Part shown: positions 1,499 through 15,369 of the stretch, in pieces
Position numbering within the stretch: position 1 is the first letter of the stretch
Layout: each line of letters opens with the position of its first letter
Origin: Dechloromonas sp. TW-R-39-2
GTDB taxonomy: Bacteria; Pseudomonadota; Gammaproteobacteria; Burkholderiales; Rhodocyclaceae
Direction: 5' to 3'
DNA length: 64,000 nt
Assembly (NCBI RefSeq): GCF_016864195.1
Contig: NZ_CP045202.1
Span: forward strand, 1,643,001-1,707,000
Program-made: the position numbers and the translations under genes
Notes under the pieces: model-generated
What the model saw: the letters and a program-made list of their open reading frames with translations, nothing else
What the model was told of the DNA's origin: nothing
Database searches by the model: none

Positions 1499-1583
1499 GC
1501 TCTGGTGGTGAAATTGGTAGACACGCTATCTTGAGGGGGTAGTGCCGCAAGGTGTGCGAGTTCGAGTCTCGCCCAGAGCACCA
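1499..1583 (+). tRNA. tRNA-Leu (anticodon GAG)
   Basis: Class II tRNA with a long variable arm. The acceptor GCTCTGG pairs with CCAGAGC and CCA is encoded. Anticodon stem CTATC/GGTAG encloses TTGAGGG, giving GAG. The T-loop is TTCGAGT. A tyrosine integrase gene begins 165 bases downstream, so this is the likely integration target of the following island. The tRNA itself is intact. Confidence 0.93.
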
Positions 1584-1611
1584 AAAATAGTTCTAAAGCA
1601 GTCCAAATAAG

Positions 1612-1651
1612 GCCAGAAAACCAAGCAAATACAAGGTTTCTGGCTTTTTTT
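1612..1651 (+). terminator. Rho-independent terminator after tRNA-Leu
   Basis: GCCAGAAAACC and GGTTTCTGGC form a 10-bp stem, followed by seven Ts. It ends the tRNA transcript before the integrase gene. Confidence 0.8.
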
Positions 1652-1687
1652 GCGTCCACGGAAGTCCAAAGCGATCTATTGCAATCC

Positions 1688-1717
1688 GGGGGTACAGAGG
1701 GGTATAAACAGGGGTAC
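1688..1717. repeat. GGGGTA-type repeats upstream of the integrase
   Basis: Three spaced copies (GGGGGTAC, AGGGGTATA, AGGGGTAC) lie between tRNA-Leu and the integrase start. Similar copies occur at 22669-22690 near the presumed right end. Such paired arrays fit integrase arm-binding sites, though this is inferred from position only. Confidence 0.5.
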
Positions 1718-1747
1718 AAGGCTACACGCCTAGAGGAGATACCCCCA

Positions 1748-2959
1748 ATGGCACTGAGCGACACCGCAGTACGTAGCGCAAAGCCTGCAAACAAGGCTTA
1801 CAAGCTTGCTGACGAAAAAGGTCTTTTCCTTCTGGTGCACCCAAATGGCTCAAAGTACTGGCGCCAGAAATACCGATTTGACGGCAAAGAAAAAACGCTT
1901 GCTCAAGGGGTCTATCCTGACATCAGTCTCAAGGAGGCCCGAGAACGCCGAGACGAAGCCCGAAAGCAATTGGCCAATGGGGTTGATCCCAGCCAACATC
2001 GAAAAGCAGCCAAAGCTACCCGGGAAGCCATCGTTGCCAACAGCTTCGAAATCATCTGCCGCGAATGGCTAGAGTACAAGCGCAGCAACATCGAAGAAGC
2101 TCAATACAAAAAGGCTCTCGCCCGATTGGAGAAGGATGTCTTCCCCTGGATGGGTACCAGACCAATCTCTGAGATTTCCGCCCCTGAAATTCTGGCCGTA
2201 CTTCGCCGGATTGATGCACGGGGAGCTCGCTACACTGCCCACAAAGCAAAGAGCGAAATCAGTCAATGCTTCCGTTTTGCCATCGCTACCGGCCGAGCGG
2301 AACGCGACCCCTGCCCGGACCTCAAAGGCGCAATTCCTCCGGCAAAGACCGAAAACCTTCCCTCAATCACCAATCCGAAAGAAGTGGGTGAGTTGCTTAG
2401 AGCGATAGATGGTTTCAAGGGCACATTCGTTGTGAAATGCGCCCTTGAGATCGGACCACGAGTATTTGTCCGTCCAGGTGAGTTGAGAAAAGCGAAGTGG
2501 GAGGATTTCGACCTCGACAAGGGCGAATGGCGTTACTTCATCACCAAGACAAAAACTGAACACCTCGTCCCGCTCGCCAGCCAGGTTGTCTCAACGCTAC
2601 GGGAACTACACGCCCTGACAGGCCACGGCCCCTATGTCTTTCCAGGGCGTGACCCCAAACTTCCCATGAGCGATGCTGCCATCAATGCGGCACTACGTCG
2701 TATGGGATACGACACAAAGACAGAAATCACTGGGCACGGATTCCGTGCAATGGCCCGCACTATCCTGCATGAAGAACTACATCAGAAGCCTGAAGTCATT
2801 GAGCACCAGCTGGCCCACTCCGTTTCTGATAGTTTAGGTACAGCCTATAACCGCACCAAGTTTCTCAAAGAACGTCGTGTGATGATGCAATCTTGGTCCG
2901 ACTACTTAGACAAGCTGAAATCTGGAGCACAAGTATTGGAATTTACGCCTGCTGCTTAG
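1748..2959 (+). CDS. int: Tyrosine-type site-specific integrase (DUF4102/P4-like)
   Basis: 403 residues. The N-terminal DUF4102 arm-binding domain is recognisable (LSDTAVRSAKP, KGLFLLVHPNGSKYW, GVYPDISLKEARERRDEA). A SAM-like core-binding region follows, then the catalytic domain with Arg in RPGELRKAKW, HxxR in HGFRAMAR, the second His in QLAHS and the nucleophile Tyr in AYNRTKF. It catalyses integration and excision of the island, with tRNA-Leu as probable target. The start at 1748 has GAGGAG ten bases upstream; an in-frame start at 1679 would run through the GGGGTA repeats and is unlikely. All key residues are present, so the enzyme could be active. Confidence 0.93.
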   Translation: MALSDTAVRSAKPANKAYKLADEKGLFLLVHPNGSKYWRQKYRFDGKEKTLAQGVYPDISLKEARERRDEARKQLANGVDPSQHRKAAKATREAIVANSFEIICREWLEYKRSNIEEAQYKKALARLEKDVFPWMGTRPISEISAPEILAVLRRIDARGARYTAHKAKSEISQCFRFAIATGRAERDPCPDLKGAIPPAKTENLPSITNPKEVGELLRAIDGFKGTFVVKCALEIGPRVFVRPGELRKAKWEDFDLDKGEWRYFITKTKTEHLVPLASQVVSTLRELHALTGHGPYVFPGRDPKLPMSDAAINAALRRMGYDTKTEITGHGFRAMARTILHEELHQKPEVIEHQLAHSVSDSLGTAYNRTKFLKERRVMMQSWSDYLDKLKSGAQVLEFTPAA

Positions 2960-2996
2960 ATTGCATTAACTAGTTATTTAAATTTTGAGGTGAAAA

Positions 2997-3608
2997 ATGG
3001 GAATATATGATAATGCATACCCAACTAATTTAGTCCAGCTCGCTGAAATAATGAAATCCAGTTCACTTGCGGATGCGATGACGAATTTGGCTAAAGAATT
3101 TGATTTAGACCGTGAATTGTCACTCACAATTGTCAAAGCAAGAACAACACCGGCCGAAGAAAGATGCGTCCACTACAAAAAACTCTACGAGCTATACGCA
3201 ACGATAATACAACGGTACCCCCTGAGCAATGCAATCTTGGAGATTATAAATGACCATGCAGAATACATGCACTATAAAAAAATGTGCAAGTTCTACAAAG
3301 ATGATCTAACTTCCGTAATAGAAGCAACAACAAAAAGAAAAGAAGCTGCAGCAAAGGGCGGCGAAGCAAGAACTAAAAAATCAAAAGATTTTGCGAAATT
3401 CATAAAAAAACTAGTGGACTCAACAAAACCCAAGGAAGGATGGGAGAGCATAAATCATTTCCTTGAAATCAACATGGAAAAAATTGAGCAAGAAAATTCT
3501 CTAAAAAAATACAACTTCGCAACATCCAATCTTAGAAAAACAGTAACAAAATGGATTAATTCCGGCGCACCACTCCCGGAGTTAAAGGACGCATTCAAGG
3601 CTAATTAA
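2997..3608 (+). CDS. Hypothetical AT-rich island protein
   Basis: 203 residues, mostly helical and lysine-rich, with no signal peptide or membrane segment. The stretch KRKEAAAKGGEARTKKSKDFAKF is strongly basic and could bind nucleic acid. It has a good ribosome site (GAGGTG) and lies 37 bases after the integrase on the same strand, converging on the Gp2-like gene. Its base composition is clearly more AT-rich than the flanking chromosome, a sign of transfer. I do not recognise the family. A role in the integrative element is suggested only by location. Confidence 0.7.
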   Translation: MGIYDNAYPTNLVQLAEIMKSSSLADAMTNLAKEFDLDRELSLTIVKARTTPAEERCVHYKKLYELYATIIQRYPLSNAILEIINDHAEYMHYKKMCKFYKDDLTSVIEATTKRKEAAAKGGEARTKKSKDFAKFIKKLVDSTKPKEGWESINHFLEINMEKIEQENSLKKYNFATSNLRKTVTKWINSGAPLPELKDAFKAN

Positions 3609-3616
3609 TTCAGATT

Positions 3617-4741
3617 TTAGTGACACACAGCACTTTGATTTTTTCGAGGACGCCCCCCCTTTTTTACAACCACCTTAAGTTCAGATCTGCCAAAGGTTCT
3701 TCCGACCACTCCGGATAGCGCCACATAGTAATCCACCTCTGCCAGATAACCCGCCGATTTTAGTAGGTTTTTACGTAAAATCGCATTATCGTGGCTTATA
3801 GAACCAATTCCAAGAACCCCTCTTTTTTCGTAATACGGCTTGTTAGCATTGCAATTCCAGTACGCACCTTTTTTATTCGTTAAATTAATCCAAGTCTCCC
3901 CCGCCATTTTTCCTAGGTTTATATCATTGCGTGCTTTTGATGAATCAAAAAAAAGCATGACATGAAAATGAAGGCCTCGTGACGGACCAAACTCCAGTTT
4001 CCAAATATATCCTACAAATGCGCTGAATTTTTCTCCGGAACGGATATGCCGAAGCCACTTTTCCAAATCCAAGTGCGCGCTCTTGCAATTATCAGAGCAA
4101 AGAATTGATCCATTCACATAAGATAGATCGACACGAACAACCAAAAGTCGCGAGTGGATATCAAAAAGATTATTGATCAAATTCAATGCGCTTCTTGCAT
4201 TCTTACTAGCAGCTCTGCGTCTGTTTTTAACTGTCTTTGTAAAATCCGCACCAGAAGATTGCTCCCTGAAATTATTTATAAACTTATTGAATGCATCATA
4301 CGCAAATACCTTCTTATCCATTGTGCTGGTATTGTAAAAATTGAAATATGATTTCAACACCGAATCTTTTGATAGTAAATCAACGAAAAGCTTAAATATT
4401 GGATCGAGATCATGATATGAAAAATCTGCCATAACGCGCCGCAAATCTCTCTGCAGTATATTCTCAAACAAATTCATCAAATTGCTATCCCCCCTTGATG
4501 CTATCGCATATTTTCCATCCTTGTTTTTTCTCAAGACATCAAAGACATTCCCATCAAAAAGCAACAAATCCGTCAGTGAGTCCAAGCACCTTCGAAGTGC
4601 CTTGACCGCATCGCAATCAGGGCGACCAGCTCCCTCTCCATTAGAGCTGATATCACCCCCTGTCCATGCGTTTCTCCCGACCCAGTCACTCAGACAGGCA
4701 ACCCGATCTTTACTCATGACAACACCAACTTGACAAAACAT
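3617..4741 (-). CDS. Inovirus Gp2-like / YagK-YfjJ family replication protein
   Basis: Up to 374 residues. The C-terminal half matches the inovirus Gp2 (YagK/YfjJ) type: a strand RVDLSYVNG, then FVGYIWKLEFGPSRGLHFHV with the HFH (HxH) metal motif of HUH rolling-circle enzymes, then LMLFFD-like and GAYWNCN segments. Such proteins occur on filamentous-phage-like and P4-like satellites next to AlpA and integrases, as here. Start is uncertain: ATG 4741 or ATG 4717 (MSKDRVAC), neither with a strong ribosome site. AT-rich. It probably starts replication of the excised element. No separate catalytic Tyr motif can be assigned by eye. Confidence 0.75.
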   Translation of the reverse strand: MFCQVGVVMSKDRVACLSDWVGRNAWTGGDISSNGEGAGRPDCDAVKALRRCLDSLTDLLLFDGNVFDVLRKNKDGKYAIASRGDSNLMNLFENILQRDLRRVMADFSYHDLDPIFKLFVDLLSKDSVLKSYFNFYNTSTMDKKVFAYDAFNKFINNFREQSSGADFTKTVKNRRRAASKNARSALNLINNLFDIHSRLLVVRVDLSYVNGSILCSDNCKSAHLDLEKWLRHIRSGEKFSAFVGYIWKLEFGPSRGLHFHVMLFFDSSKARNDINLGKMAGETWINLTNKKGAYWNCNANKPYYEKRGVLGIGSISHDNAILRKNLLKSAGYLAEVDYYVALSGVVGRTFGRSELKVVVKKGGRPRKNQSAVCH

Positions 4742-4894
4742 TTAAATAAAAACAACCGGAACCTGTTGTAAATAATTCAAAAGCACCCCCGCACTTCTCT
4801 GTAGGATGGTTTTGTATCTTAAATAGTAATGTGAAATCAAGTAAAACAATCACGCAAAATTCTCCGCAGTAGAATTGAAAATATCGCCGTTTTT

Positions 4895-5131
4895 CTACCT
4901 AATCCTCCCGACTTCAGATCGGGCCTGTATCCACTCGCAAACCTCCTCCAACAACCACCCAACAGAAGCTCCTCCTAACTTGAATGGCGCAGGAAATGTT
5001 TGATCAAATCTCGGAGATTTTGGATTAATCCAGTCGTAAATTGTTGATCGACCTATTCCTATCATTGACTGCAGGTCTTTTATACGAATGACCCGCGCCG
5101 GCTTTGTTATCACATCAATATCGTTCATCAT
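4895..5131 (-). CDS. alpA: AlpA family phage/island transcriptional regulator
   Basis: 78 residues from ATG 5131 (ATG 5128 is equally possible), preceded by AGGGG. An in-frame start 72 bases further upstream adds a hydrophobic sequence foreign to the family. The core is a winged MerR-like helix-turn-helix: RVIRIKDLQSMIGIGRSTIYDWI, then the wing region FPAPFKLGGASVGWLLEEVCEWI. AlpA proteins switch on integrase/excision functions of P4-type elements and often precede a replication gene, as here. The Gp2-like gene lies about 150 bases downstream on the same strand, so a unit is plausible. Confidence 0.85.
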   Translation of the reverse strand: MMNDIDVITKPARVIRIKDLQSMIGIGRSTIYDWINPKSPRFDQTFPAPFKLGGASVGWLLEEVCEWIQARSEVGRIR

Positions 5132-5192
5132 TGTTTCCCCTGTTTGTTTTTGGACAACGACAAATATAAAAAATAATTTCAGTTGTCGTAGA

Positions 5193-5231
5193 GCTTTAGC
5201 CAAGCTTGGTTGATTTGTGCTTAGCTAAAGC
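5193..5231. repeat. Inverted repeat upstream of alpA
   Basis: GCTTTAGC (5193-5200) and GCTAAAGC (5224-5231) form an 8-bp inverted repeat around the 10-bp palindrome CCAAGCTTGG (5200-5209). It lies 60-100 bases before alpA and could be an operator, or an end of the neighbouring IS relic. Confidence 0.35.
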
Positions 5232-5278
5232 CACGCTTAACCACCAACGCAGGGGCCGCCTAAGACAAACTGCCGGAC

Positions 5279-5480
5279 GACCATGCCGAAAGGCAGCGAG
5301 TTCGGGAGTTTGTGGCCATTCAGATTCGCTACGGTGTTGAATGCATCCAGGTGCTGCTGGGTCAATACAGCTGCGGTGCGAAGACTGGCTAATCAATCAC
5401 AAGAAGACTTACCGGATTTGCTGTGAGAAAGCCTGAACCTACGGAGCAAGCTGCCGCACACCGGCAAGGACGCCCCGTGA
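5279..5480 (+). pseudogene. Relic of an IS3-family transposase (OrfB)
   Basis: Reading across at least two frameshifts and a stop gives, in order, RQRVREFVAIQIRYG, VECIQVLL, WLINHKKTYRI and LNLRSKLPH. These match the order RIRE..RYGYRRIHVLL..W.VNHKKTYRIY..EGLNLR of the N-terminal half of IS3-family OrfB, the part before the DDE domain. No OrfA or catalytic DDE part is visible. It is a dead remnant between the alpA module and the next module, and marks an old junction in the island. Confidence 0.65.
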
Positions 5481-5754
5481 TCACGTCACTTCCTTCATGT
5501 AGCCTTTTGAGTAATTGACGACAGGGCAACTTAGTTCCCCTGGCACAGTCGAGTTGGTTCTACACCCACTCAGCACGGGTCTTTGCTAGGGGCTCCTGTT
5601 CCAAAATTATTTCAGCTGCTGAACCAGCCCGTGAATTGAGAAGGCTCCCGCCCGATCCTGTTTCTAAAGTATCTGAGCCACGTATATCTGAATTGGAAAC
5701 CTGAGAGAACTGTCTTCGGAGTGTCGAATTGGCAAGTCTCTGCATATTCACAAG
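5481..5754. other. Non-coding stretch after the IS3 relic
   Basis: Apart from a 94-residue minus-strand open frame without ribosome site or recognisable motif, I see no gene here. The stretch leads into the terminator at 5755-5787, so it may be the end of a former transcript or a small RNA; nothing in the sequence decides this. Confidence 0.3.
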
Positions 5755-5787
5755 AAGCCCACTCCGTTGCTGACGGAGTGGGCTTTT
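5755..5787 (+). terminator. Rho-independent terminator
   Basis: AAGCCCACTCCGT pairs with ACGGAGTGGGCTT around a 5-base loop, followed by a T run. No complete gene upstream on this strand uses it, so it may close an unrecognised transcript. It insulates the following gene. Confidence 0.8.
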
Positions 5788-5877
5788 CTGTATGTGCTTT
5801 CCGAGTAGTTCAGCTAACAGCAGATGCTCCGGCCATTGGCTCATCTGTCCTTCCTCAATGAACGCAGGAGAAAAACC

Positions 5878-6252
5878 ATGACTTTGAAATGCCCAGTGTG
5901 CAAATCCAGAAAACTTGAAACGTTCGATTACGGCAAAAAGACGGGCGCCACGATCGGCGTTGTAGGTGGCGCAGCGAGCGGTGCCGCCGGGGCCATGAGT
6001 GGTGCTCGGCTGGGTGCGAGCGTCGGTGCCGTCGTAGGGCCTGTTGGGATCGGTATTGGCGGTATTGCCGGGGCAATTATTGGAGCCATTTTGGGCGGAT
6101 CAGCAGGTGGTGCGGCAGGTGCCAAGATTGGTCAAGCAATCGATGAACGCTACTTGGAGAACAACCGCTGCCTGAATTGTGGCCACACATTCAGCAACGA
6201 CTCCCAGGACGATCAGCATAATCAGCGCGCGCGACTGCCACTCCATCGCTGA
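5878..6252 (+). CDS. Glycine-zipper membrane protein flanked by CxxC zinc-ribbon halves
   Basis: 124 residues. It starts with a CPVCKSRKLETFDYG segment (CxxC), continues with about 70 residues of Gly/Ala-rich hydrophobic sequence full of GxxxG spacing (GVVGGAASGAAG, GPVGIGIGGIAGAIIGAIL), and ends with NNRCLNCGHTF (second CxxC). The two Cys pairs could form one zinc ribbon, with the glycine-zipper hairpin inserted in the membrane. The ribosome site AGGAG lies eight bases before ATG. Island location, next to the DUF932/YqaJ module. Function unknown. Confidence 0.7.
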   Translation: MTLKCPVCKSRKLETFDYGKKTGATIGVVGGAASGAAGAMSGARLGASVGAVVGPVGIGIGGIAGAIIGAILGGSAGGAAGAKIGQAIDERYLENNRCLNCGHTFSNDSQDDQHNQRARLPLHR

Positions 6253-6380
6253 GCCCTTGTTCGGATTCACCCCGGTGCGTCCAGTGCTTACGGCATGACG
6301 GGACGCCTGTAGTCCGTTGATCCATCGATCGTTCATCCATATTCCACTTTTACATCCTCGATCCGTTTAGGAGAGTTTCA

Positions 6381-7349
6381 ATGGCACATCTCGTGCAACA
6401 AATGGCCTACGTCGGTGAAGAGCCGTGGCACGGCTTGGGCAATCGCCTTCCAAGCAAACAGCCTTTAGAAGTCTGGCAACAGGAAGCCGGCATGAATTGG
6501 CAGATCAATGAGTCGCCGGTTCGCTTCATGTCGGACAGTATCGGTTCGTTAGGCTCGATTCACTCGTTTCCGGAACAGAAGGTCTTGTATCGTTCGGATA
6601 CGAAGGAAGCGCTTTCTGTGGTCTCACAACGCTATCAGGTCATTCAGCCGCGTGAGGTACTGGAGTTTTATCGCGATCTCACGGAAATCTCTGGTTATCA
6701 GTTGGAGACGGCAGGGGTTTTGAAAGGCGGGAAGAAGTTTTGGGCGTTGGCGCGAACAGGACAGTCGACTACTTTGAAGGGGAATGACCAGGTCAATGGC
6801 TATCTGCTGCTGGCCACTTCCTGTGATGGCACCCTGGCCACAACAGCAACCCCCACGACGATACGGGTGGTCTGCAATAACACCCTGACCATTGCCGTGA
6901 ATGGCGCAACGCAAGCGATCAAGGTGCCGCACAGCACGCGTTTTGACGCCCAGTTGGTCAAACAGCAATTGGGTATTGCCGTTTCCCAGTGGGATGGCTT
7001 CATGTATCGCATGAAGACTCTGGCTGAGCGTAAGGTGAAATCACATGAGGCGATGAACTACTTCCTGCGCGTGCTGTGTGATGCCCAGCCGGTTCCCGGT
7101 GATTTATCTGTCCTGTCCAATGAACGGGCGTTGAAAAAGGTCCATAGCCTCTACGATGGTCAAGGGCGAGGTGCGGAACTTGAAGCGGCCAAAGGCACAG
7201 CCTGGGGCTTGCTGAACGCCGTGACTGAGTACGTTGATCATGAGCGGCGTGCTAGAAGTACCGAGTACCGGATGGATTCTGCCTGGTTCGGTCAAGGAGC
7301 CGTGATTAAACAACGGGCTCTGGATACCGCTTTACTGCTTGCCGCCTGA
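6381..7349 (+). CDS. DUF932 domain protein (phage/plasmid-like family)
   Basis: 322 residues, typical for the family. It begins with the usual MAYVGEEPWHGLGNRLP motif and contains SQRYQVIQPREVLEFYRDL, ETAGVLKGGKKFWALAR and ATSCDGTLATTATPTTIRV, the central DUF932 features. DUF932 proteins are common on large phages, plasmids and ICEs next to YqaJ nucleases and single-strand annealing or recombination proteins; their biochemical role is not established. A ribosome site AGGAG precedes the start. First gene of a three-gene module with the exonuclease and the RDF-like protein. Confidence 0.88.
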   Translation: MAHLVQQMAYVGEEPWHGLGNRLPSKQPLEVWQQEAGMNWQINESPVRFMSDSIGSLGSIHSFPEQKVLYRSDTKEALSVVSQRYQVIQPREVLEFYRDLTEISGYQLETAGVLKGGKKFWALARTGQSTTLKGNDQVNGYLLLATSCDGTLATTATPTTIRVVCNNTLTIAVNGATQAIKVPHSTRFDAQLVKQQLGIAVSQWDGFMYRMKTLAERKVKSHEAMNYFLRVLCDAQPVPGDLSVLSNERALKKVHSLYDGQGRGAELEAAKGTAWGLLNAVTEYVDHERRARSTEYRMDSAWFGQGAVIKQRALDTALLLAA

Positions 7350-7390
7350 ATTCATCGCCAGCCCAGCTTTTACCTTTTACGCCTCCACAG

Positions 7391-7427
7391 ACAACGCCCG
7401 GTTCAGCAAATGCTGACTGGGCGTTGT
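7391..7427 (+). terminator. Hairpin between the DUF932 and YqaJ genes
   Basis: ACAACGCCCGGTTCAGCA and TGCTGACTGGGCGTTGT form a long stem with one bulge and an AA-centred loop, followed by a weak T-rich tail (CGTTTCT). It may attenuate transcription into the nuclease gene or stabilise the upstream message. Confidence 0.6.
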
Positions 7428-7448
7428 CGTTTCTGAAAGGAACACATC

Positions 7449-8456
7449 ATGCAAACCCAAGTCTTGCCACTGGTCAGTTCGGCTAAACCTCGCCCGGCAT
7501 TGCGCCTGGTGGGTACCAAGGAACTGCCGCGTGACGATTGGCTAGCCGTTCGCAAACAAGGGATCGGCAGTTCCGATGCGGCCGCTGCGGTGGGGCTCAA
7601 TCCCTACAAGTCCCAACTCGAACTCTGGCTTGAGAAAACTGGACGAGATGGCAGCATGCCCAAAGCAGATCCCCAGGATGAGGAAAGCCCAGCCTATTGG
7701 GGCAACATCCTCGAACCGATTGTGGCGGCGCACTACACCAAACGGACCGGCCACCGGGTGCGGCGCATTAACTCTGTACTGCAACATCCAGATCCAACAC
7801 TCGCTTGGATGCTGGCGAATATCGACCGTGAAGTGACGGGGGCCAGCGATGTTCAGATCTTGGAATGCAAAACAGCCGGGATTAACGGTGCACGTCTCTG
7901 GAAGGAAGGTGTTCCGGAATATGTCCAGTTGCAGGTCCATCACCAATTGGCCGTGACGGGCAAGCAAGCCGCTGATGTGGCCGTCCTGCTCGGTGGTCAG
8001 CACCTGGAAATCCATCGTATCGAACGAGATGAAACGTTGATCCGGCGCTTGATCGAACTGGAACGCCAATTCTGGCGCTACGTTGAAACCGATACACCAC
8101 CACCCGCCGATGGCTCCGAATCTGCTGAGAAGAGTTTGCGTTGTCTGTACCCGAAGGATCACGGACAGATGCTGGATTTCACCCAGGATCGGAACCTCTC
8201 GGCCAGCTTCGCGGATTTGCTGGCGGTCCGTCAGTCCATTACGGAGCAGGAGAAGCTGGAAGCGCAGTTGAAGCAGCGCCTGCAGCAGGCCATCGGTGAG
8301 GCGAGCGGGGCACATTTTGAAACGGGTTGCGTCACCTGGAAACGGAGCAAGGACAGCGTGGCAGCGGACGTTGCCCGACTCCTGGCCGATCACCCCGATC
8401 TCCAACAGCGCTATGCCACGACGAAGGCTGGCAGCAGGCGGTTTCTGATCGCTTGA
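7449..8456 (+). CDS. YqaJ-family recombination exonuclease
   Basis: 335 residues. The lambda-exonuclease/YqaJ fold is visible: RKQGIGSSDAAAAVGLNPYKS at the N-terminus, WGNILEPIVAAHYTKRTGH (conserved Glu), LANIDREV (catalytic Asp), then LECKTA (the ExK pair) and VQLQVHHQLAVTG. This is a PD-(D/E)xK nuclease that resects double-stranded DNA ends to feed an annealing protein. A C-terminal coiled-coil (ITEQEKLEAQLKQRLQQAIGE) follows. In plasmids and ICEs it accompanies DUF932 and the next gene, which fits a mobile-element recombination kit. No single-strand annealing protein is recognisable here. Confidence 0.9.
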   Translation: MQTQVLPLVSSAKPRPALRLVGTKELPRDDWLAVRKQGIGSSDAAAAVGLNPYKSQLELWLEKTGRDGSMPKADPQDEESPAYWGNILEPIVAAHYTKRTGHRVRRINSVLQHPDPTLAWMLANIDREVTGASDVQILECKTAGINGARLWKEGVPEYVQLQVHHQLAVTGKQAADVAVLLGGQHLEIHRIERDETLIRRLIELERQFWRYVETDTPPPADGSESAEKSLRCLYPKDHGQMLDFTQDRNLSASFADLLAVRQSITEQEKLEAQLKQRLQQAIGEASGAHFETGCVTWKRSKDSVAADVARLLADHPDLQQRYATTKAGSRRFLIA

Positions 8457-8540
8457 ACCCCATTCACCCAAACACGACCGCCGCCGGAATCATCCGGGGC
8501 GCTCGTGTGCGGGCAATTATTGATAGAAGGAGTAAAAATC

Positions 8541-9464
8541 ATGCTGAAAGGTTTGGTCATCACGCCGCCGGTACTCGGGCGAATTTCCATTGGCAAGGTC
8601 GTCGAGCGCAACGGCAAGCGACTACCGGAGAAAGACGATCAATTCACCATTACGAGCCAGGTTCAAGGAAAGGATGGCTGGTTGCCTCACCCCTTTGATG
8701 AGGGCTTACGCAAAGGGCAGGGCGGCAAGATACGCAGCATCCCGATTCAACTCCTTTTCAACGATCCAGAATTGAGTTTTAGGGCGGAGTACAGCCTGTT
8801 CGACCGAAATACCGGCCGGCCACTGTGCGTTGGTAATGGCGAAACCTGCAAACGGCGAAGCGAAGAGGGGATACAGAGTTTGCCGTGTCCTTCACCGGTT
8901 GGTTGTCCTTTGGCGCAGGGTCATGCGTGTAAGCCGTATGCTCGTCTGAATGTGAGCGTCGGTGACGATGATCCATTGGGTTGTTTTGTGTTTCGGACGA
9001 CTGGATTCAACAGTATTCGGACGCTCGTGGCACGCTTGCGTTACTTCCAGGCCATTTCCGGTGATCGACTCTCCTGTCTGCCGCTGGAGTTGAGATTGCG
9101 CGGCAAATCCACACGGCAGAGTCATGGCGCGCCGATTTTCTATGTCGATATCACCCCGAGAAGCGGCATGACCATCGAAGAGATGTTGGCTGATGCCAGG
9201 CGAAAGGACGCTGATCGACAGTTGGCAGGTTTTGATCAAGCGGCCTTGGACATTGCTGCTCGGCTAGGTTTGGGCAACGGGGCATTTGAGGAAAGCGATG
9301 AGGATGGCAGCGTTGTGGTCGAAGAGTTTTTCAGCGACACACAATCGGCTCAGCAACTTCCATCGAAGCTTGATTCGGATGGGGGAAAACCTGATTTGGT
9401 CGTGCAAGGAAAGTCATCGCTCGCGACAAAGCTGGATGCCAAGGCTGATTCACTCGTTTCCTGA
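8541..9464 (+). CDS. Putative recombination directionality factor-like / metal-binding protein
   Basis: 307 residues from ATG 8541, which has AAGGAG eight bases upstream. After the start (LKGLVITPPVLGRISIGKVV) comes a region with four spaced cysteines (CVGNGETC, LPCPSPVGC, GHAC), likely a zinc site, and a conserved VFRTTGFNSIRTLVARLRYF block. This type is usually labelled 'hydrolase or metal-binding protein' and accompanies YqaJ and DUF932. It also resembles the Gp3-like recombination directionality factor family, which I state with moderate confidence. The C-terminus is acidic and low-complexity. Confidence 0.7.
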   Translation: MLKGLVITPPVLGRISIGKVVERNGKRLPEKDDQFTITSQVQGKDGWLPHPFDEGLRKGQGGKIRSIPIQLLFNDPELSFRAEYSLFDRNTGRPLCVGNGETCKRRSEEGIQSLPCPSPVGCPLAQGHACKPYARLNVSVGDDDPLGCFVFRTTGFNSIRTLVARLRYFQAISGDRLSCLPLELRLRGKSTRQSHGAPIFYVDITPRSGMTIEEMLADARRKDADRQLAGFDQAALDIAARLGLGNGAFEESDEDGSVVVEEFFSDTQSAQQLPSKLDSDGGKPDLVVQGKSSLATKLDAKADSLVS

Positions 9465-10060: not shown

Positions 10061-10336
10061 GTGCTACGCCAATCTGGAGTCTGTGCCATCGAATACCGTT
10101 ACATGGTTGGGGTGTACCCCAGCGGCAGCAAAAAACTTCTTGCGCTCATCACCTGTGAAAGCAGCTATTTTCTGGAACTTGGCGACCCAGGAAAATTTGC
10201 CCTCGAGGTATTTTTGCCGGAAGGTCACCATACCCTCGATGTGGCGACCGAGTATGGTCCCTGGAATGTTTTCCTCAAGAAAGCCGTGACGGTTATCGAA
10301 TCCCTCCTCGCCGACAGCCAATCCCCCACGGCATAA
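10061..10336 (+). CDS. Small hypothetical protein, possible first gene of the caspase operon
   Basis: About 91 residues from GTG 10061; the frame opens just after tandem TGA codons at 10037-10042, so the start is uncertain (ATG 10103 would give RYM-VGVYPSG). The core VGVYPSGSKKLLALITC, FALEVFLPEGHHTLDVATEYGPWNVFLKK reads as genuine protein. It lies 30 bases before the sigma-like gene on the same strand. No signal peptide or family recognised. A truncated 5' end or frameshift is possible. Confidence 0.45.
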   Translation: MLRQSGVCAIEYRYMVGVYPSGSKKLLALITCESSYFLELGDPGKFALEVFLPEGHHTLDVATEYGPWNVFLKKAVTVIESLLADSQSPTA

Positions 10337-10366
10337 TGGCGTTCGCTTCAATCCTGACCCCATCTC

Positions 10367-11125
10367 ATGGCAACTCTCCCCGACAATCAGGCGATTCTTG
10401 GTTACTGGCGCCGACGCAAACTTTCACCTGGCCTGTCAGAGGCGGAATGGGCGGATTTCTATCAAAAGGTCACCCGCCTGCTGATACGCACCCGGTTGCC
10501 GGCGGAATATGCCGACACCGAGGCGCGGCAGGATCTGATCCATGCTTTTTTCGTGCAGAAGATTTTGCAAAACGCCCGGACAACCCAGGCGGGCGATCTG
10601 GAAAATGCGCATGTTCTGCACGGTTACCTGAAGCGCTTTGCACAAGATGAAATACGCGAACAGGCCGGACTGGTGGAAATAGACGAATACGTTGCTGACG
10701 AAGAAGATGTCTTCACCGATGTGGTGGAGGCATGTGCCGTGGCGCTTTCCCACGACGACTTGCACCTCCTGGCTGAAGCCGGCATCGATGTGGCGACAGC
10801 CAATGCCGAAGCGGATCGTTTTCTCGCCACCTTGGGCGAAGGTGAGCGACGGATGCTACGTCATCACACTTGTGCCGAAGATGAGGCACGTCTGCCGATG
10901 GACGCAATCGCCAAACGCTGGCAGATCGCCAGCTACCACTACAAGGCCAAAAAGTTGGGAATCACCGGGCAGAAGGGCGGCTTTTTTCAAGGTTATGAAA
11001 ACACCTTGCTCGGCGGCTGGCTGACAAAACTGCGGGCAGAAATTTCTCCGGAATGGCACCGGGAATTGGTCGCACTATTGAATCTCCTGTGCTTGCGCGT
11101 TCAGAAAACCATGGGGGAAACGTGA
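10367..11125 (+). CDS. Sigma-70-like (ECF-like) regulatory protein
   Basis: 252 residues, larger than most ECF sigma factors. Residues about 45-105 resemble sigma region 2 (ADTEARQDLIHAFFVQKIL, then VLHGYLKRFAQDEIREQ). Residues about 150-200 resemble region 4 (FLATLGEGERRMLRHH, then DAIAKRWQIASYHYKAKKLG as helix-turn-helix). A C-terminal extension of about 50 residues ends WHRELVALLNLLCLR. The stop overlaps the start of the next gene, which has one membrane segment, as for sigma/anti-sigma pairs. It probably directs transcription of this operon or the downstream secreted-protein genes. Assignment rests on motif order by eye, so a non-sigma helix-turn-helix protein remains possible. Confidence 0.6.
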   Translation: MATLPDNQAILGYWRRRKLSPGLSEAEWADFYQKVTRLLIRTRLPAEYADTEARQDLIHAFFVQKILQNARTTQAGDLENAHVLHGYLKRFAQDEIREQAGLVEIDEYVADEEDVFTDVVEACAVALSHDDLHLLAEAGIDVATANAEADRFLATLGEGERRMLRHHTCAEDEARLPMDAIAKRWQIASYHYKAKKLGITGQKGGFFQGYENTLLGGWLTKLRAEISPEWHRELVALLNLLCLRVQKTMGET

Positions 11126-12240
11126 TGCAGCGCCGGCTCTATCCCCCGCTCGAACGCTTGCGCCGGGAGCTTTTCGATTCCCCTGTGTCACCGGAATCAT
11201 CTGAGTTCCTTCCTGACCTGGATGCTGCCCAGCCAGATACGCCGCCGCCCATGCCCGACTTCATCCGCGAACACATCGCACGCACGGTGGCCGCACAACT
11301 TGCACATGTGCCGAGCGCTCCGGCTGTTGGGCAAATTCGTGCCTTGTCTGCAGTCAACGCGATAAACAAGCAGAATTCCCGACCGCTTGGCCGCAATGTC
11401 GGCGTGCTGCTCGGTGCCCACTTGGGCGGCCAGCAATGGCAAGGCTGGTTGGTGACGGCCGATACCGATTACGCCACCGACCGGGACTTGCTGATCGAGG
11501 AAGACGACGGCCCCGCTGACCCGCAAGCCGGCATGGTCATGACCCGCTTGCCGTTGCGAGCCATCATCCCGGGCGACGCGCCGATTCTCGCCAAGCTGTC
11601 CCCGGCGCGCCTGGGGGCCGTTATCGCACTGGCTGAAGCGCCGGACGGTGCCGAGCCGATTCCCCCCCGGCCAGGACATATCTTCGCCCGCGACCTCGAC
11701 GCCGAGCATGTCGGCATCACCGGCTCGCCGCTCGGCGGCCCCGGCGATCCACGCCACGCCTATCGTGCCCTCCACCAGCAATTGGCCGACGAAATGAGCA
11801 GCACAGCCGAGGCGGTGGCCCCCCAGACCAAAGAACAGCCGATCCGTAGCGGATTCTTCGCTTGGCTGTTCAGTCGCCACTGGGCTCCGGCGCCGGTCCT
11901 GGCGGCCTTGATTGCTGTCATCGCTGTCCAGAATCTGTGGCTCAACGTCGGCGACGATGAAACCCTGCGCTATCGGGGCCACAGCGAGGTCACGACGCCC
12001 TGCGCGGCAGTTGCCCGCCTGCGCGTCGTCTTCAAGGCCAATGCGCCACAGGAAACCGTGGTGTTGCTGCTGCGCAAGGCTGAGGCACGCGTCGTCAGCG
12101 GCCCCTCGGAAATCGGCGAATGGTGGCTCAGCCTGCCTGCGGATGCTTCAGTAAAAGAAGCTTTGGCACAGTTGCGCAACAGCCCGTTGGTGGCAGATGT
12201 AATCGTCGTCGAGACAAAGGAAACGGCATGCCAGCCCTGA
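11125..12240 (+). CDS. Single-pass membrane protein, putative anti-sigma-like partner
   Basis: 371 residues from ATG 11125, which shares its A with the preceding TGA. The N-terminal 270 residues are cytoplasmic-type: basic start, Pro-rich linker, then a globular part (GRNVGVLLGAHLGGQQWQGW, LPLRAIIPGDAPILAKL, HVGITGSPLGGPGDPRHAY). One membrane segment follows (APVLAALIAVIAVQNLWL). The last 100 residues, predicted periplasmic, form an alpha/beta module (ARLRVVFKANAPQETVVLLL, GEWWLSLPADASVKEALAQL). This is the layout of membrane-bound anti-sigma or sensor-transducer proteins. It overlaps both neighbours, implying translational coupling with the sigma-like protein and the caspase. Confidence 0.6.
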   Translation: MQRRLYPPLERLRRELFDSPVSPESSEFLPDLDAAQPDTPPPMPDFIREHIARTVAAQLAHVPSAPAVGQIRALSAVNAINKQNSRPLGRNVGVLLGAHLGGQQWQGWLVTADTDYATDRDLLIEEDDGPADPQAGMVMTRLPLRAIIPGDAPILAKLSPARLGAVIALAEAPDGAEPIPPRPGHIFARDLDAEHVGITGSPLGGPGDPRHAYRALHQQLADEMSSTAEAVAPQTKEQPIRSGFFAWLFSRHWAPAPVLAALIAVIAVQNLWLNVGDDETLRYRGHSEVTTPCAAVARLRVVFKANAPQETVVLLLRKAEARVVSGPSEIGEWWLSLPADASVKEALAQLRNSPLVADVIVVETKETACQP

Positions 12241-13583
12241 TTCGCCTGATATTCTTGGTTTTGCTGCTAAGTTGCGGCGCCAGCGTCAGTGCCGCAGGCA
12301 ACCAGGCGGTAAAGCATGCGCTGGTATTGGCGAATGGCGGATATAGCCGCGATGCGCTGCCCAATGCCCTGCGCGATGGCAAGCTGATGGCTCAGACACT
12401 GCGGCAATTGGGGTTTGCCGTGACCGAACGCACCGACTTGCCCCGCGAAGAAATGATGGCAGTCGTGGCCCGCTTCACCGATGGACTGCCGGAAGGAGCG
12501 ACCGCACTGGTGTACTACGCCGGGCATGGCATGCAGGTGGGCGGCGGCAATTACCTGACCCCCATCGACATGCAACTGACCGGCGAAGCCAGCGTCCCGC
12601 TCAAGGCCTATCCGGTGCGCCATTTGCTCGAACGCCTGGCGCTGGCCCGTAGCGCGGTCAACATCCTGATCCTTGACGCCTGCCGCAACAATCCTTTCCT
12701 GCCGGCCGGCGCGGTCCGTTACCGCAGTTTCAACGCGTTGGGCCTCGCCCGGGAACATACCCCGCGCGGCACGCTGATCGCCTATTCCGCCTCCCCCGGG
12801 CAGCAGGCGCCCGAAGGCCAGGGCAAAAACAGCGTTTACAGCGAAACGCTGGCCCGAACGCTGCTCGAACCGCAACTTGAAATACGCGACATTTTCAACA
12901 AGGTTGGCAGCCTCGTCCGCCGGCAAAGCCTGGACGACCAGATTCCCTGGTATGAGTCGTCACTAACCGACGACTACTATTTCCAGCCGCCGGACGGCGT
13001 CACCGTGGCGGCCGGCAAACCCCTCCAGTTCGCCCGACTGGGGCGGGAGGGGCGCAAGGTTCGGGGAGAAACCCCGCCATCGCTCAACTGGTTCAACGAT
13101 CTCAGCGTGCAGGAATGGGACATGCTCGATTGGGAAATCCAGCAGCGCGTCGAACGCCTGACCGCCGACGAACTCCCCGCGCTCGAACACAAGGCCGAAG
13201 GCGGCAGCCTGGTGCACCAAACCACGCTGGCGCTTGCCTATCGCGAAGGCGTCGAAAAGGCCATTGAACCGGGCAGCGGCAAAGTCACGCGCTACAACGC
13301 CAACAACTCCAAGGCGCTCAAATGGCTGGCCCAGGCGGCTGAGGCCGGATTCCCCATTGCCCAGGTGGAGCTGGGTGAAATGTATTTCGCCGGCCATGGC
13401 GTCGACCGCAATCTCGACACCGCCCGCCGCTGGATAGAACAGGCCAACCACGTGCGCTACACCCGTGCCCGGCTGGATCTGCTTCAACTGGACACTCTGC
13501 TGTCGGCCATGGAGGCAGCACGCGACCCCTATCTGGGCGGCGTAAGCAAAAGGGCGGCGGCTGTTCCAGAGGAGAGGCGATAA
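12228..13583 (+). CDS. Secreted caspase-family (C14) protease with Sel1 repeat
   Basis: 451 residues from ATG 12228, overlapping the previous gene by 13 bases. A hydrophobic export signal with a possible lipobox-like LLSC lies at residues 4-20. The caspase p20-like domain follows: KHALVLANGGYS, catalytic His100 in YYAGHG, catalytic Cys152 in LDACRNNPF, then GTLIAYSASPGQQA. The C-terminal third contains a Sel1/TPR-type unit (SKALKWLAQAAEAG, AQVELGEMYFAGHGVDRN). The catalytic dyad is intact. Bacterial caspase-like proteases cut after basic residues and are often coupled to regulatory or repeat domains. Coupling to sigma and anti-sigma-like proteins suggests signal-responsive proteolysis, inferred from gene order only. 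Confidence 0.88.
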   Translation: MPALIRLIFLVLLLSCGASVSAAGNQAVKHALVLANGGYSRDALPNALRDGKLMAQTLRQLGFAVTERTDLPREEMMAVVARFTDGLPEGATALVYYAGHGMQVGGGNYLTPIDMQLTGEASVPLKAYPVRHLLERLALARSAVNILILDACRNNPFLPAGAVRYRSFNALGLAREHTPRGTLIAYSASPGQQAPEGQGKNSVYSETLARTLLEPQLEIRDIFNKVGSLVRRQSLDDQIPWYESSLTDDYYFQPPDGVTVAAGKPLQFARLGREGRKVRGETPPSLNWFNDLSVQEWDMLDWEIQQRVERLTADELPALEHKAEGGSLVHQTTLALAYREGVEKAIEPGSGKVTRYNANNSKALKWLAQAAEAGFPIAQVELGEMYFAGHGVDRNLDTARRWIEQANHVRYTRARLDLLQLDTLLSAMEAARDPYLGGVSKRAAAVPEERR

Positions 13584-13677: not shown

Positions 13678-14169
13678 GTGCGTCTGTTCAGACTGATCCT
13701 GGCACTAACTGTTTTGCCAATGTGCGTACCGGCACAAGCCGGCGAGCGTGAATTGCTAGAGGCCATCAAGCAAGCCAACTGGCCGGTCGTCAAACAGGAA
13801 ACCGAGCAGCTGGCCAGCGCCGGCAATGCCTGGGGGCTTTACATGAAAGCGGCTTTTATCGGCGGGATACTTTGCCAAGATGCCAGCAGCCCTTGCAAGC
13901 CCATCCCCGGATTTGAACTGGATAGAAAAGCGGCGGGCCAGTATCTGCTTGCCGCAGCCGAGAAAGGCGAACGACAAGCTTTCGACTACCTTGCCTTCGG
14001 CTATGAGCGCGGACTTTGGGGCTTGCCGGTAGATCGGGAGGCCGCCATCGCCTGGTCACTGAAGGGACTTCACTTGATGGATGAGCGCAGCGCGAGTCGC
14101 TACTACGCTCTGACCGGCTTGAAGCGCGGCAGCCTGCTGCCCGGCGCTCACTTCGGTTCAAGGCAATAA
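13678..14169 (+). CDS. Secreted Sel1-like small repeat protein
   Basis: 163 residues starting at GTG 13678, eight bases after AAGGGGG. The signal peptide MRLFRLILALTVLPMCVPAQA ends at an AQA cleavage site. The mature part contains two Sel1-like helical units (KQANWPVVKQETEQLASAG; AAGQYLLAAAEKGERQAFDYLAFGYERG, then DREAAIAWSLKGL). Sel1 proteins are scaffolds for protein contacts. It follows the caspase gene by about 95 bases and probably has its own promoter. It may work with the caspase, which carries similar repeats, but no direct evidence shows this. Confidence 0.75.
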   Translation: MRLFRLILALTVLPMCVPAQAGERELLEAIKQANWPVVKQETEQLASAGNAWGLYMKAAFIGGILCQDASSPCKPIPGFELDRKAAGQYLLAAAEKGERQAFDYLAFGYERGLWGLPVDREAAIAWSLKGLHLMDERSASRYYALTGLKRGSLLPGAHFGSRQ

Positions 14170-14226: not shown

Positions 14227-15369
14227 ATGAAACGCACAGTATTCGGTATAGCCACATTATTACTTCTCAGCACCGCCCCCTGCGTGGCCAACGCCTTCAC
14301 GGCCATCGCCTGGAGCCAGTCCGGGCAAAAAGGCGGATCGGTCAAGAATGCGCCGACCAAGGAAGCAGCCATTTCAGCGGCTATTGCCGATTGTAAAAAG
14401 AGCGGTGGCGGTGCGGATTGCCAGGTCTTCAAAGTCACCGATGAGCCCGGATTCGTCGCGCTCTACGCCACCTGCGCCAAGACCTGCGGCGTCACTGCGG
14501 TAACGGGGCGCCCTACGGCGGAGCAGGCGCGGATCGATGGCAAGCGGGAGTGTGAAGCCTATTACCGGGCTAGCTGCCAGTTGGCGCAGGAGTGGCAAGA
14601 AGGCCAGCCTCGCCAGCTTCCTGCATCCAGCCAAGAAGCAACAACACAGTGTTTTGTTCAGGACCATCCCTGCGCATGCGTTACGACAAACCCAACGGCA
14701 AAATTGGACAAAATTGTCAGCGGCGAAATGAGTTACGAAAAATACATGGAACAACTTTCGGGAATTGAGATTATTTGCATGTATACGGTGGGGCAAAAGA
14801 CAAGCAACCAAGAAATGAGTCGAGAAGCGGCCCATGCGATGCTTAATCGCCAAGATGCGGCGAGGGAGGCAGTGAAATACGGTTTTTTGAATCTGGAACA
14901 ATATGAATTAGCGGCCAAGCAAAATGGTTGGAGCACCAACAAGGCAGCAGCGGTTACTCCAGAACAAGGGCGTCATCAGAACGCTGGTGTAGTTACTAAT
15001 CAAAGAGCCTGTGATTCCGGCGACGGGGCAGGCTGCTACAACCTCGGGGTGATGTACTACAAGGGGGAGGGCGTCAGTCAGGACAAGGAGGAAGCAGTTC
15101 GGTCTTACGATAAGGGCTGTGGTTTGGGGGATGGAAAAGGCTGCTACAACCTAGGGAATATTTATCGTAAAGGTAATGATGCTCGTCAGGACAAACAGAA
15201 AGCATTTCAATATTACGACAAGGCCTGTAGTTTGAAGGTTGGAGCTGGTTGCTACGCTGTCGGGTTGATGTATGACGATGGTAGTGGTGGTCGCCAGGAT
15301 AAACAGAAAGCGGCCTATTTTTTAAAGAAGGCCTGCGAGCTTAATGTTGACGCGGCCTGTGGTAATTAA
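14227..15369 (+). CDS. Secreted DUF4189 and Cys-rich Sel1 repeat protein
   Basis: 380 residues with a signal peptide ending CVANA. Residues about 24-105 resemble DUF4189 (AIAWSQSGQKGGSVKNAPTK, AAIADCKKSGGGADCQVFK) with paired cysteines. A linker with more cysteines follows, then at least three Sel1/Hcp-like repeats, each with a Cys pair (CDSGDGAGCYNLGVMYYKGEG, CGLGDGKGCYNLGNIYRKGND, CSLKVGAGCYAVGLMYDDGS), as in disulfide-locked Hcp proteins. Periplasmic or secreted. Ribosome site GGGAG. Function unknown; repeated Sel1 proteins in this region suggest a shared system. Confidence 0.75.
   Translation: MKRTVFGIATLLLLSTAPCVANAFTAIAWSQSGQKGGSVKNAPTKEAAISAAIADCKKSGGGADCQVFKVTDEPGFVALYATCAKTCGVTAVTGRPTAEQARIDGKRECEAYYRASCQLAQEWQEGQPRQLPASSQEATTQCFVQDHPCACVTTNPTAKLDKIVSGEMSYEKYMEQLSGIEIICMYTVGQKTSNQEMSREAAHAMLNRQDAAREAVKYGFLNLEQYELAAKQNGWSTNKAAAVTPEQGRHQNAGVVTNQRACDSGDGAGCYNLGVMYYKGEGVSQDKEEAVRSYDKGCGLGDGKGCYNLGNIYRKGNDARQDKQKAFQYYDKACSLKVGAGCYAVGLMYDDGSGGRQDKQKAAYFLKKACELNVDAACGN

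Follow-up and report, generated by a model that had tools for sequence, protein, structure and literature searches.

An overlapping trio of genes lies on the forward strand of Dechloromonas sp. TW-R-39-2, in a stretch of 64,000 nucleotides (the window; positions 1643001-1707000 of a 3.46 Mb single-contig genome, NZ_CP045202.1). The trio comprises g1, which probably encodes a divergent sigma factor of the extracytoplasmic function (ECF) type, g2, which encodes a single-pass membrane anti-sigma-like protein, and a gene for a C14 caspase with a signal-like start (Table 1), and it reads as a variant of a module in which an ECF sigma factor, an anti-sigma factor and a protease follow one another. 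As described in the initial annotation, g1 and g2 share one base (11125) and g2 and the caspase gene share 13 bases (12228-12240), and from these overlaps we infer that the three genes are translated together. Longer starts are mechanically available for g2 (11053) and the caspase (12120); the junction starts are favoured because they agree with the N-termini of homologues (a conserved LYPP in g2) and provide the caspase with a hydrophobic, signal-like beginning.

Table 1. Features of the trio and of the genes that follow it (positions within the window).
Feature	Position	Strand	Details
g1	10367..11125	+	ATG 10367, TGA 11123-11125, 252 aa; likely divergent ECF-like sigma factor
g1, sigma region 2-like part	10370..10669	+	residues 2-101
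g1, sigma region 4-like part	10748..11044	+	residues 128-226; conserved SYHYKAKKLGIT
g2	11125..12240	+	ATG 11125, TGA 12238-12240, 371 aa; single-pass membrane anti-sigma-like protein
g2, presumed cytoplasmic domain	11314..11655	+	residues 64-177; predicted MazF-like barrel
g2, presumed transmembrane helix	11896..11952	+	residues 258-276; hydrophobic
g2, presumed periplasmic propeptide-like domain	12007..12237	+	residues 295-371
caspase	12228..13583	+	ATG 12228, stop 13583, 451 aa; C14, signal-like start, Sel1 repeats
caspase, catalytic His100 codon	12525..12527	+	
caspase, catalytic Cys152 codon	12681..12683	+	
possible Sel1-type protein	13678..14169	+	signal-like start, weak Sel1 match, 163 aa; downstream of trio, candidate member
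DUF4189 + Sel1 protein	14227..15369	+	signal-like start; downstream of trio, candidate member

The caspase matches the Pfam families C14 (3.8e-34) and Sel1 (2.1e-11) and a PADLOC caspase model (8.8e-10), and its residues 3-21 form a hydrophobic, signal-like start. It had been announced as a secreted caspase with an intact His100/Cys152 dyad and a Sel1 repeat; the dyad is present at these positions, and an exported caspase is supported. The five best-scoring relatives in the pool all come from sigma operons (L005, L007, L008, L031 and L010; loci are designated by L numbers), and in the same comparison the caspases of L009 and L006 score below several solitary caspases. A caspase tree was left unused, because 3 of its 22 inner branches were well supported, several branches were long and most of the topology was unresolved; the label 'sigma operon' formed no clade on it and took 6 changes.

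In the AlphaFold model of g1 (predicted template modelling score, pTM, 0.50), the two ends of the protein resemble sigma regions 2 (N-terminal) and 4 (C-terminal) in this order, the g1 profile is collinear with canonical ECF sigma factors in a profile alignment, and the protein contains no hydrophobic stretch. No Pfam or NCBIfam family was matched by g1 over its cut-off, none of the Sigma70_r2, Sigma70_r4 and sigma70-ECF models exceeded theirs (best sigma70-ECF, E 0.24), PDB sequence searches with g1 and g2 returned nothing usable, and a PADLOC scan of g1, g2, the caspase and three proteins from other loci gave no match for g1 or g2. A weak 'aroma-sacti' match (E 0.0013, below cut-off, in 6 of 15 members) was set aside and not used. 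The fold model, the collinear profile alignment and the synteny with canonical ECF operons provide moderate evidence for g1 as a divergent sigma factor of ECF type, and to this extent bear out the sigma-like first protein of the initial annotation.

The single hydrophobic stretch of g2 and the C-terminal domain behind it are homologous to canonical ECF anti-sigma factors (profile comparison 98.4%, E 5.5e-15, in which just the columns from 254 on align). This C-terminal domain is predicted to adopt a propeptide-like (ferredoxin-type) fold, common to subtilisin propeptides and the inhibitor POIA1. The cytoplasmic part gave no profile homology to the N-terminal domain of canonical anti-sigma factors (0.1%) and is modelled as two N-terminal helices ahead of a barrel with a predicted MazF-like fold. 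The class I anti-sigma domain is helical, and the main cytoplasmic domain of g2 is predicted otherwise, though its two N-terminal helices could, judging from the model, play the class I role. The earlier description of an anti-sigma-like protein stands for the membrane helix and the C-terminal domain; the cytoplasmic domain is no known anti-sigma domain. None of 25 g2 members matched PemK, and in a weak alignment with MazF, read by eye at what we take to be the catalytic residues, the Thr position is unconserved and the Arg is gone in L010 and L011. The Azonexus sp. relative of g2 is 91% identical.

Anti-sigma factors with a C-terminal domain of the g2 type usually adjoin a protease gene, mostly for a subtilase and sometimes for a caspase. 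Such proteins were found in 16 of 369 surveyed genomes, with an ECF sigma factor upstream in 14 and a protease gene adjoining in 13 (11 subtilases and 2 C14 caspases, the latter as the next gene in L031 and L036). An S8 subtilase is the next gene by Pfam in nine loci (L032, L033, L034, L035, L038, L039, L040, L041 and L043), and tblastn with the subtilase of L040 added L037 and L044; the contig ends at the L044 gene, whose fragment has no Pfam match and a tblastn match of 49 residues (E 1.2e-7). L042 and L045, which belong to one family, have no protease neighbour, and L046 is undecidable. The caspase loci L031 and L036 and the subtilase loci L032-L035 and L037-L041 have the same gene order as the window trio and share with it the anti-sigma helix, the C-terminal domain and the protease as third gene, and the L031 caspase also has the same C14 and Sel1 layout. 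Their sigma factors are readily recognised (by Pfam in L031, by reading in the other loci) and their anti-sigma factors have a short cytoplasmic part (with an HxxxCxxC motif, read by eye, in 10 of the 16), whereas both proteins differ in the window. Given the homology of g2 to these anti-sigma factors and the ECF sigma and protease neighbours, the window trio appears to be a variant of the same module, one in which the sigma factor is very divergent, the protease is a caspase and the cytoplasmic anti-sigma domain has a MazF-like barrel in its model. In L127 (892-4263), an ECF sigma factor, an apparent single-pass membrane protein and a caspase were seen by eye in a row; this is possibly an independent case of the arrangement, with a membrane protein that looks different.

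Twelve distinct g1 loci were collected (the window, L005-L011, L030, L081, L082 and L083; L084, apparently the same contig as L011, was not counted). g2 adjoins g1 in ten of them, L081 and L082 being without it, and a C14 caspase lies near g1 in eight, immediately adjacent in seven (the window, L005, L007, L008, L009, L010, where it is upstream, and L083). The family PF00656 occurs in just 56 of 274 genomes of the class, yet in the vicinity of 8 of 12 g1 genes, so the trio co-occurs beyond chance. The closest locus is L005, from a metagenome-assembled genome of the Rhodocyclaceae. In L006 (12854-16241), from the same family, a CHASE2-domain protein stands between g1-g2 and the caspase, and the C-terminal sequence of g2 differs. 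L011 is without a caspase, but its contig begins just 756 bases ahead of g1. In L030 (5326-7563), the caspase is replaced beside g1-g2 by a protein whose CHAT match stays below threshold (E 0.003); this protein has no signal-like N-terminus and the g2 there has no clear membrane helix, possibly a cytoplasmic version of the same switch. A search at order level (399 genomes) found g1 in 5, the window included, one at phylum level (398 genomes) added no locus, and none was found in 35 other genomes of the genus, several of them incomplete. A solitary g1 branch exists alongside the g1-g2 form: in L081 and L082 (Burkholderiaceae), an apparently solitary g1 is found beside apparent kinase and response-regulator genes. 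Distant relatives (25-30%) on five Burkholderiaceae plasmids may also be solitary; annotation was read for two of the five (a third carried none), and in these two, NZ_CP071131.1 and NZ_AP023183.1, no annotated neighbour of the g1-like gene is named caspase or anti-sigma.

Seen from the caspase, the picture is different. Taking the best match of each of the 56 genomes and seeking sigma factors with our own hidden Markov model (HMM), a sigma and an anti-sigma factor were found to adjoin the caspase in the window and L036; a sigma factor accompanies the L127 caspase on the same strand and lies, differently oriented, close to those of L087 and L123. In the other 51 loci the sigma HMM matched nothing nearby, several of these stretches ending at contig edges, and two of the base-rate loci (L112 and L139) gave no caspase match with our own HMM. 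The second caspase of the host (G000:C1:327095, L085) likewise has no sigma HMM match in its vicinity. Since 51 of 56 caspases gave no sigma HMM match nearby and 8 of 12 g1 loci have a caspase, the association runs from g1-g2 to the caspase and not in the other direction.

The proteolytic logic of such a module is already known from RseA/DegS and from the CRISPR-associated Calp and CASP systems. In RpoE-RseA-DegS, the membrane anti-sigma factor RseA is first cut by an envelope protease and then processed further, as proposed below for g2; the protease DegS is of the serine type and belongs to a different clan from the caspases. One report mentions the cut of RseA by DegS and describes Craspase/CASP (Csx29-Csx30-CASP-sigma), in which a CHAT protease cuts the inhibitor of an ECF-like sigma factor (PMC10028731). 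L030, which joins g1-g2 to a CHAT-like protein, recalls this system, which is RNA-guided, unlike the window trio. In CalpL-CalpT-CalpS, the type III CRISPR Lon system, a protease, an anti-sigma factor and an ECF sigma factor form a trio (PMC11417357). This composition is shared with the window, where the third gene encodes a C14 caspase and not a Lon-SAVED protease activated by cyclic tetra-adenylate (cA4). CalpT is reportedly MazF-like and, if this is right, g2 and CalpT are candidates for common descent. For the ECF54 group, subtilase and CHAT proteins in the context of the sigma factor are described (PMC8999054), and these protease neighbours recall the window module. The initial annotation knew of no described system with this exact trio. 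The sigma/anti-sigma/caspase loci L031 and L036 and the logic shared with Calp and CASP restrict this claim; in the literature searches, no title or abstract opening among the matches listed described a g1/g2/caspase trio.

Upstream of the trio, the window contains a tRNA-Leu gene (1499-1583) and a phage-type integrase gene (1679-2959), followed up to 9464 by YagK-type, DUF932, YqaJ and recombination-directionality-like genes. The region 1499-9464 has the look of an integrated element's left end; the far end was not found within the window. Directly ahead of g1, a small open reading frame (10061-10336) differs from the L005 region by a four-base gap that shifts the frame, and the window copy may be interrupted.

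At roughly even confidence, we favour a reading in which the g1 sigma factor is held by g2 and the exported caspase serves as site-1 protease or protease-sensor. With its two predicted N-terminal helices and its MazF-like barrel, the cytoplasmic part of g2 would tether g1 at the inner membrane, and the propeptide-like domain would be displayed to the periplasm. Upon an envelope or extracellular cue, the exported caspase would bind this ectodomain and make the first cut; an M50 site-2 protease and cytosolic proteases would complete the degradation of g2, and the freed sigma factor would switch on its genes. An M50 protease is present; the orientation of g2 in the membrane, the binding and cleavage events, the way the signal runs and the regulon we infer. 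Several points weaken this scheme. The Foldseek list for g1 is mixed, with a helical Z background, the assignment of g1 to sigma factors and that of the g2 barrel to MazF depend chiefly on models computed from 15 and 24 sequences, and the comparison of g2 with the MazF/PemK sequence profile was not significant (probability 0.4%, E 0.17). Neither an interface nor a cut site nor a promoter emerged for the trio. A wide occurrence of the caspase without the first two genes, which the initial annotation had named as speaking against a functional unit, is literally what the 51 of 56 loci without a sigma HMM match display.

A clearly less probable alternative retains the sigma/anti-sigma pair and makes the caspase gene one of the genes that the sigma factor switches on; its product would serve in periplasmic stress or quality control as a protease that the propeptide-like ectodomain would sense or restrain rather than be cut by. 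It is common for ECF operons to contain target genes of their own, signal-like starts are found in the downstream genes too, and subtilisin is inhibited by its propeptide, the fold of which, like that of POIA1, is predicted for the ectodomain; the strict translational overlap and the recurrent immediate neighbourhood would better suit a stoichiometric partner. It is unlikely that g1 goes no further than resembling sigma domains and acts as a helical DNA-binding regulator or adaptor of non-sigma type. The lack of a Pfam match, the ECF model below cut-off, the pTM, the Foldseek results and the solitary copies would fit such a protein, but the two parts of g1 resemble sigma domains in order, and g1 stands where related loci have a true ECF sigma factor, ahead of a homologous anti-sigma ectodomain. 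Very improbable is a membrane-tethered MazF-like toxin freed by the caspase for abortive defence (killing or arrest) under regulation by g1, to which the predicted g2 fold, the integrase and recombination genes close by and the PADLOC match of the caspase could point, but which is opposed by the missing PemK/MazF profile homology, the unconserved Thr and lost Arg in the weak alignment, the lack of PADLOC matches for g1 and g2 and an ectodomain that belongs to anti-sigma factors.

Returning to the favoured reading, in which g2 holds the sigma factor, a broader view can be put forward tentatively: g2 would represent a class of anti-sigma factors with a repurposed MazF-like barrel, and caspase-type proteases would act as its gates, a caspase outside and a CHAT protein inside as in L030, in the manner of a cousin of Calp and CASP. 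With the same reserve, this cousin, itself non-CRISPR, is perhaps the source of those systems.

To our knowledge, bacterial caspases are common and the natural substrates of most of them are not known. The operon singles out the ectodomain of the anti-sigma factor as a concrete candidate and, in the regulon of the sigma factor, provides an output that could be measured. It suggests a general module of sigma factor, propeptide-domain anti-sigma factor and protease, in which the unrelated protease families S8 and C14 fill the same slot, and the trio is a chromosomal case with which CRISPR-linked signalling from protease to sigma factor can be compared.
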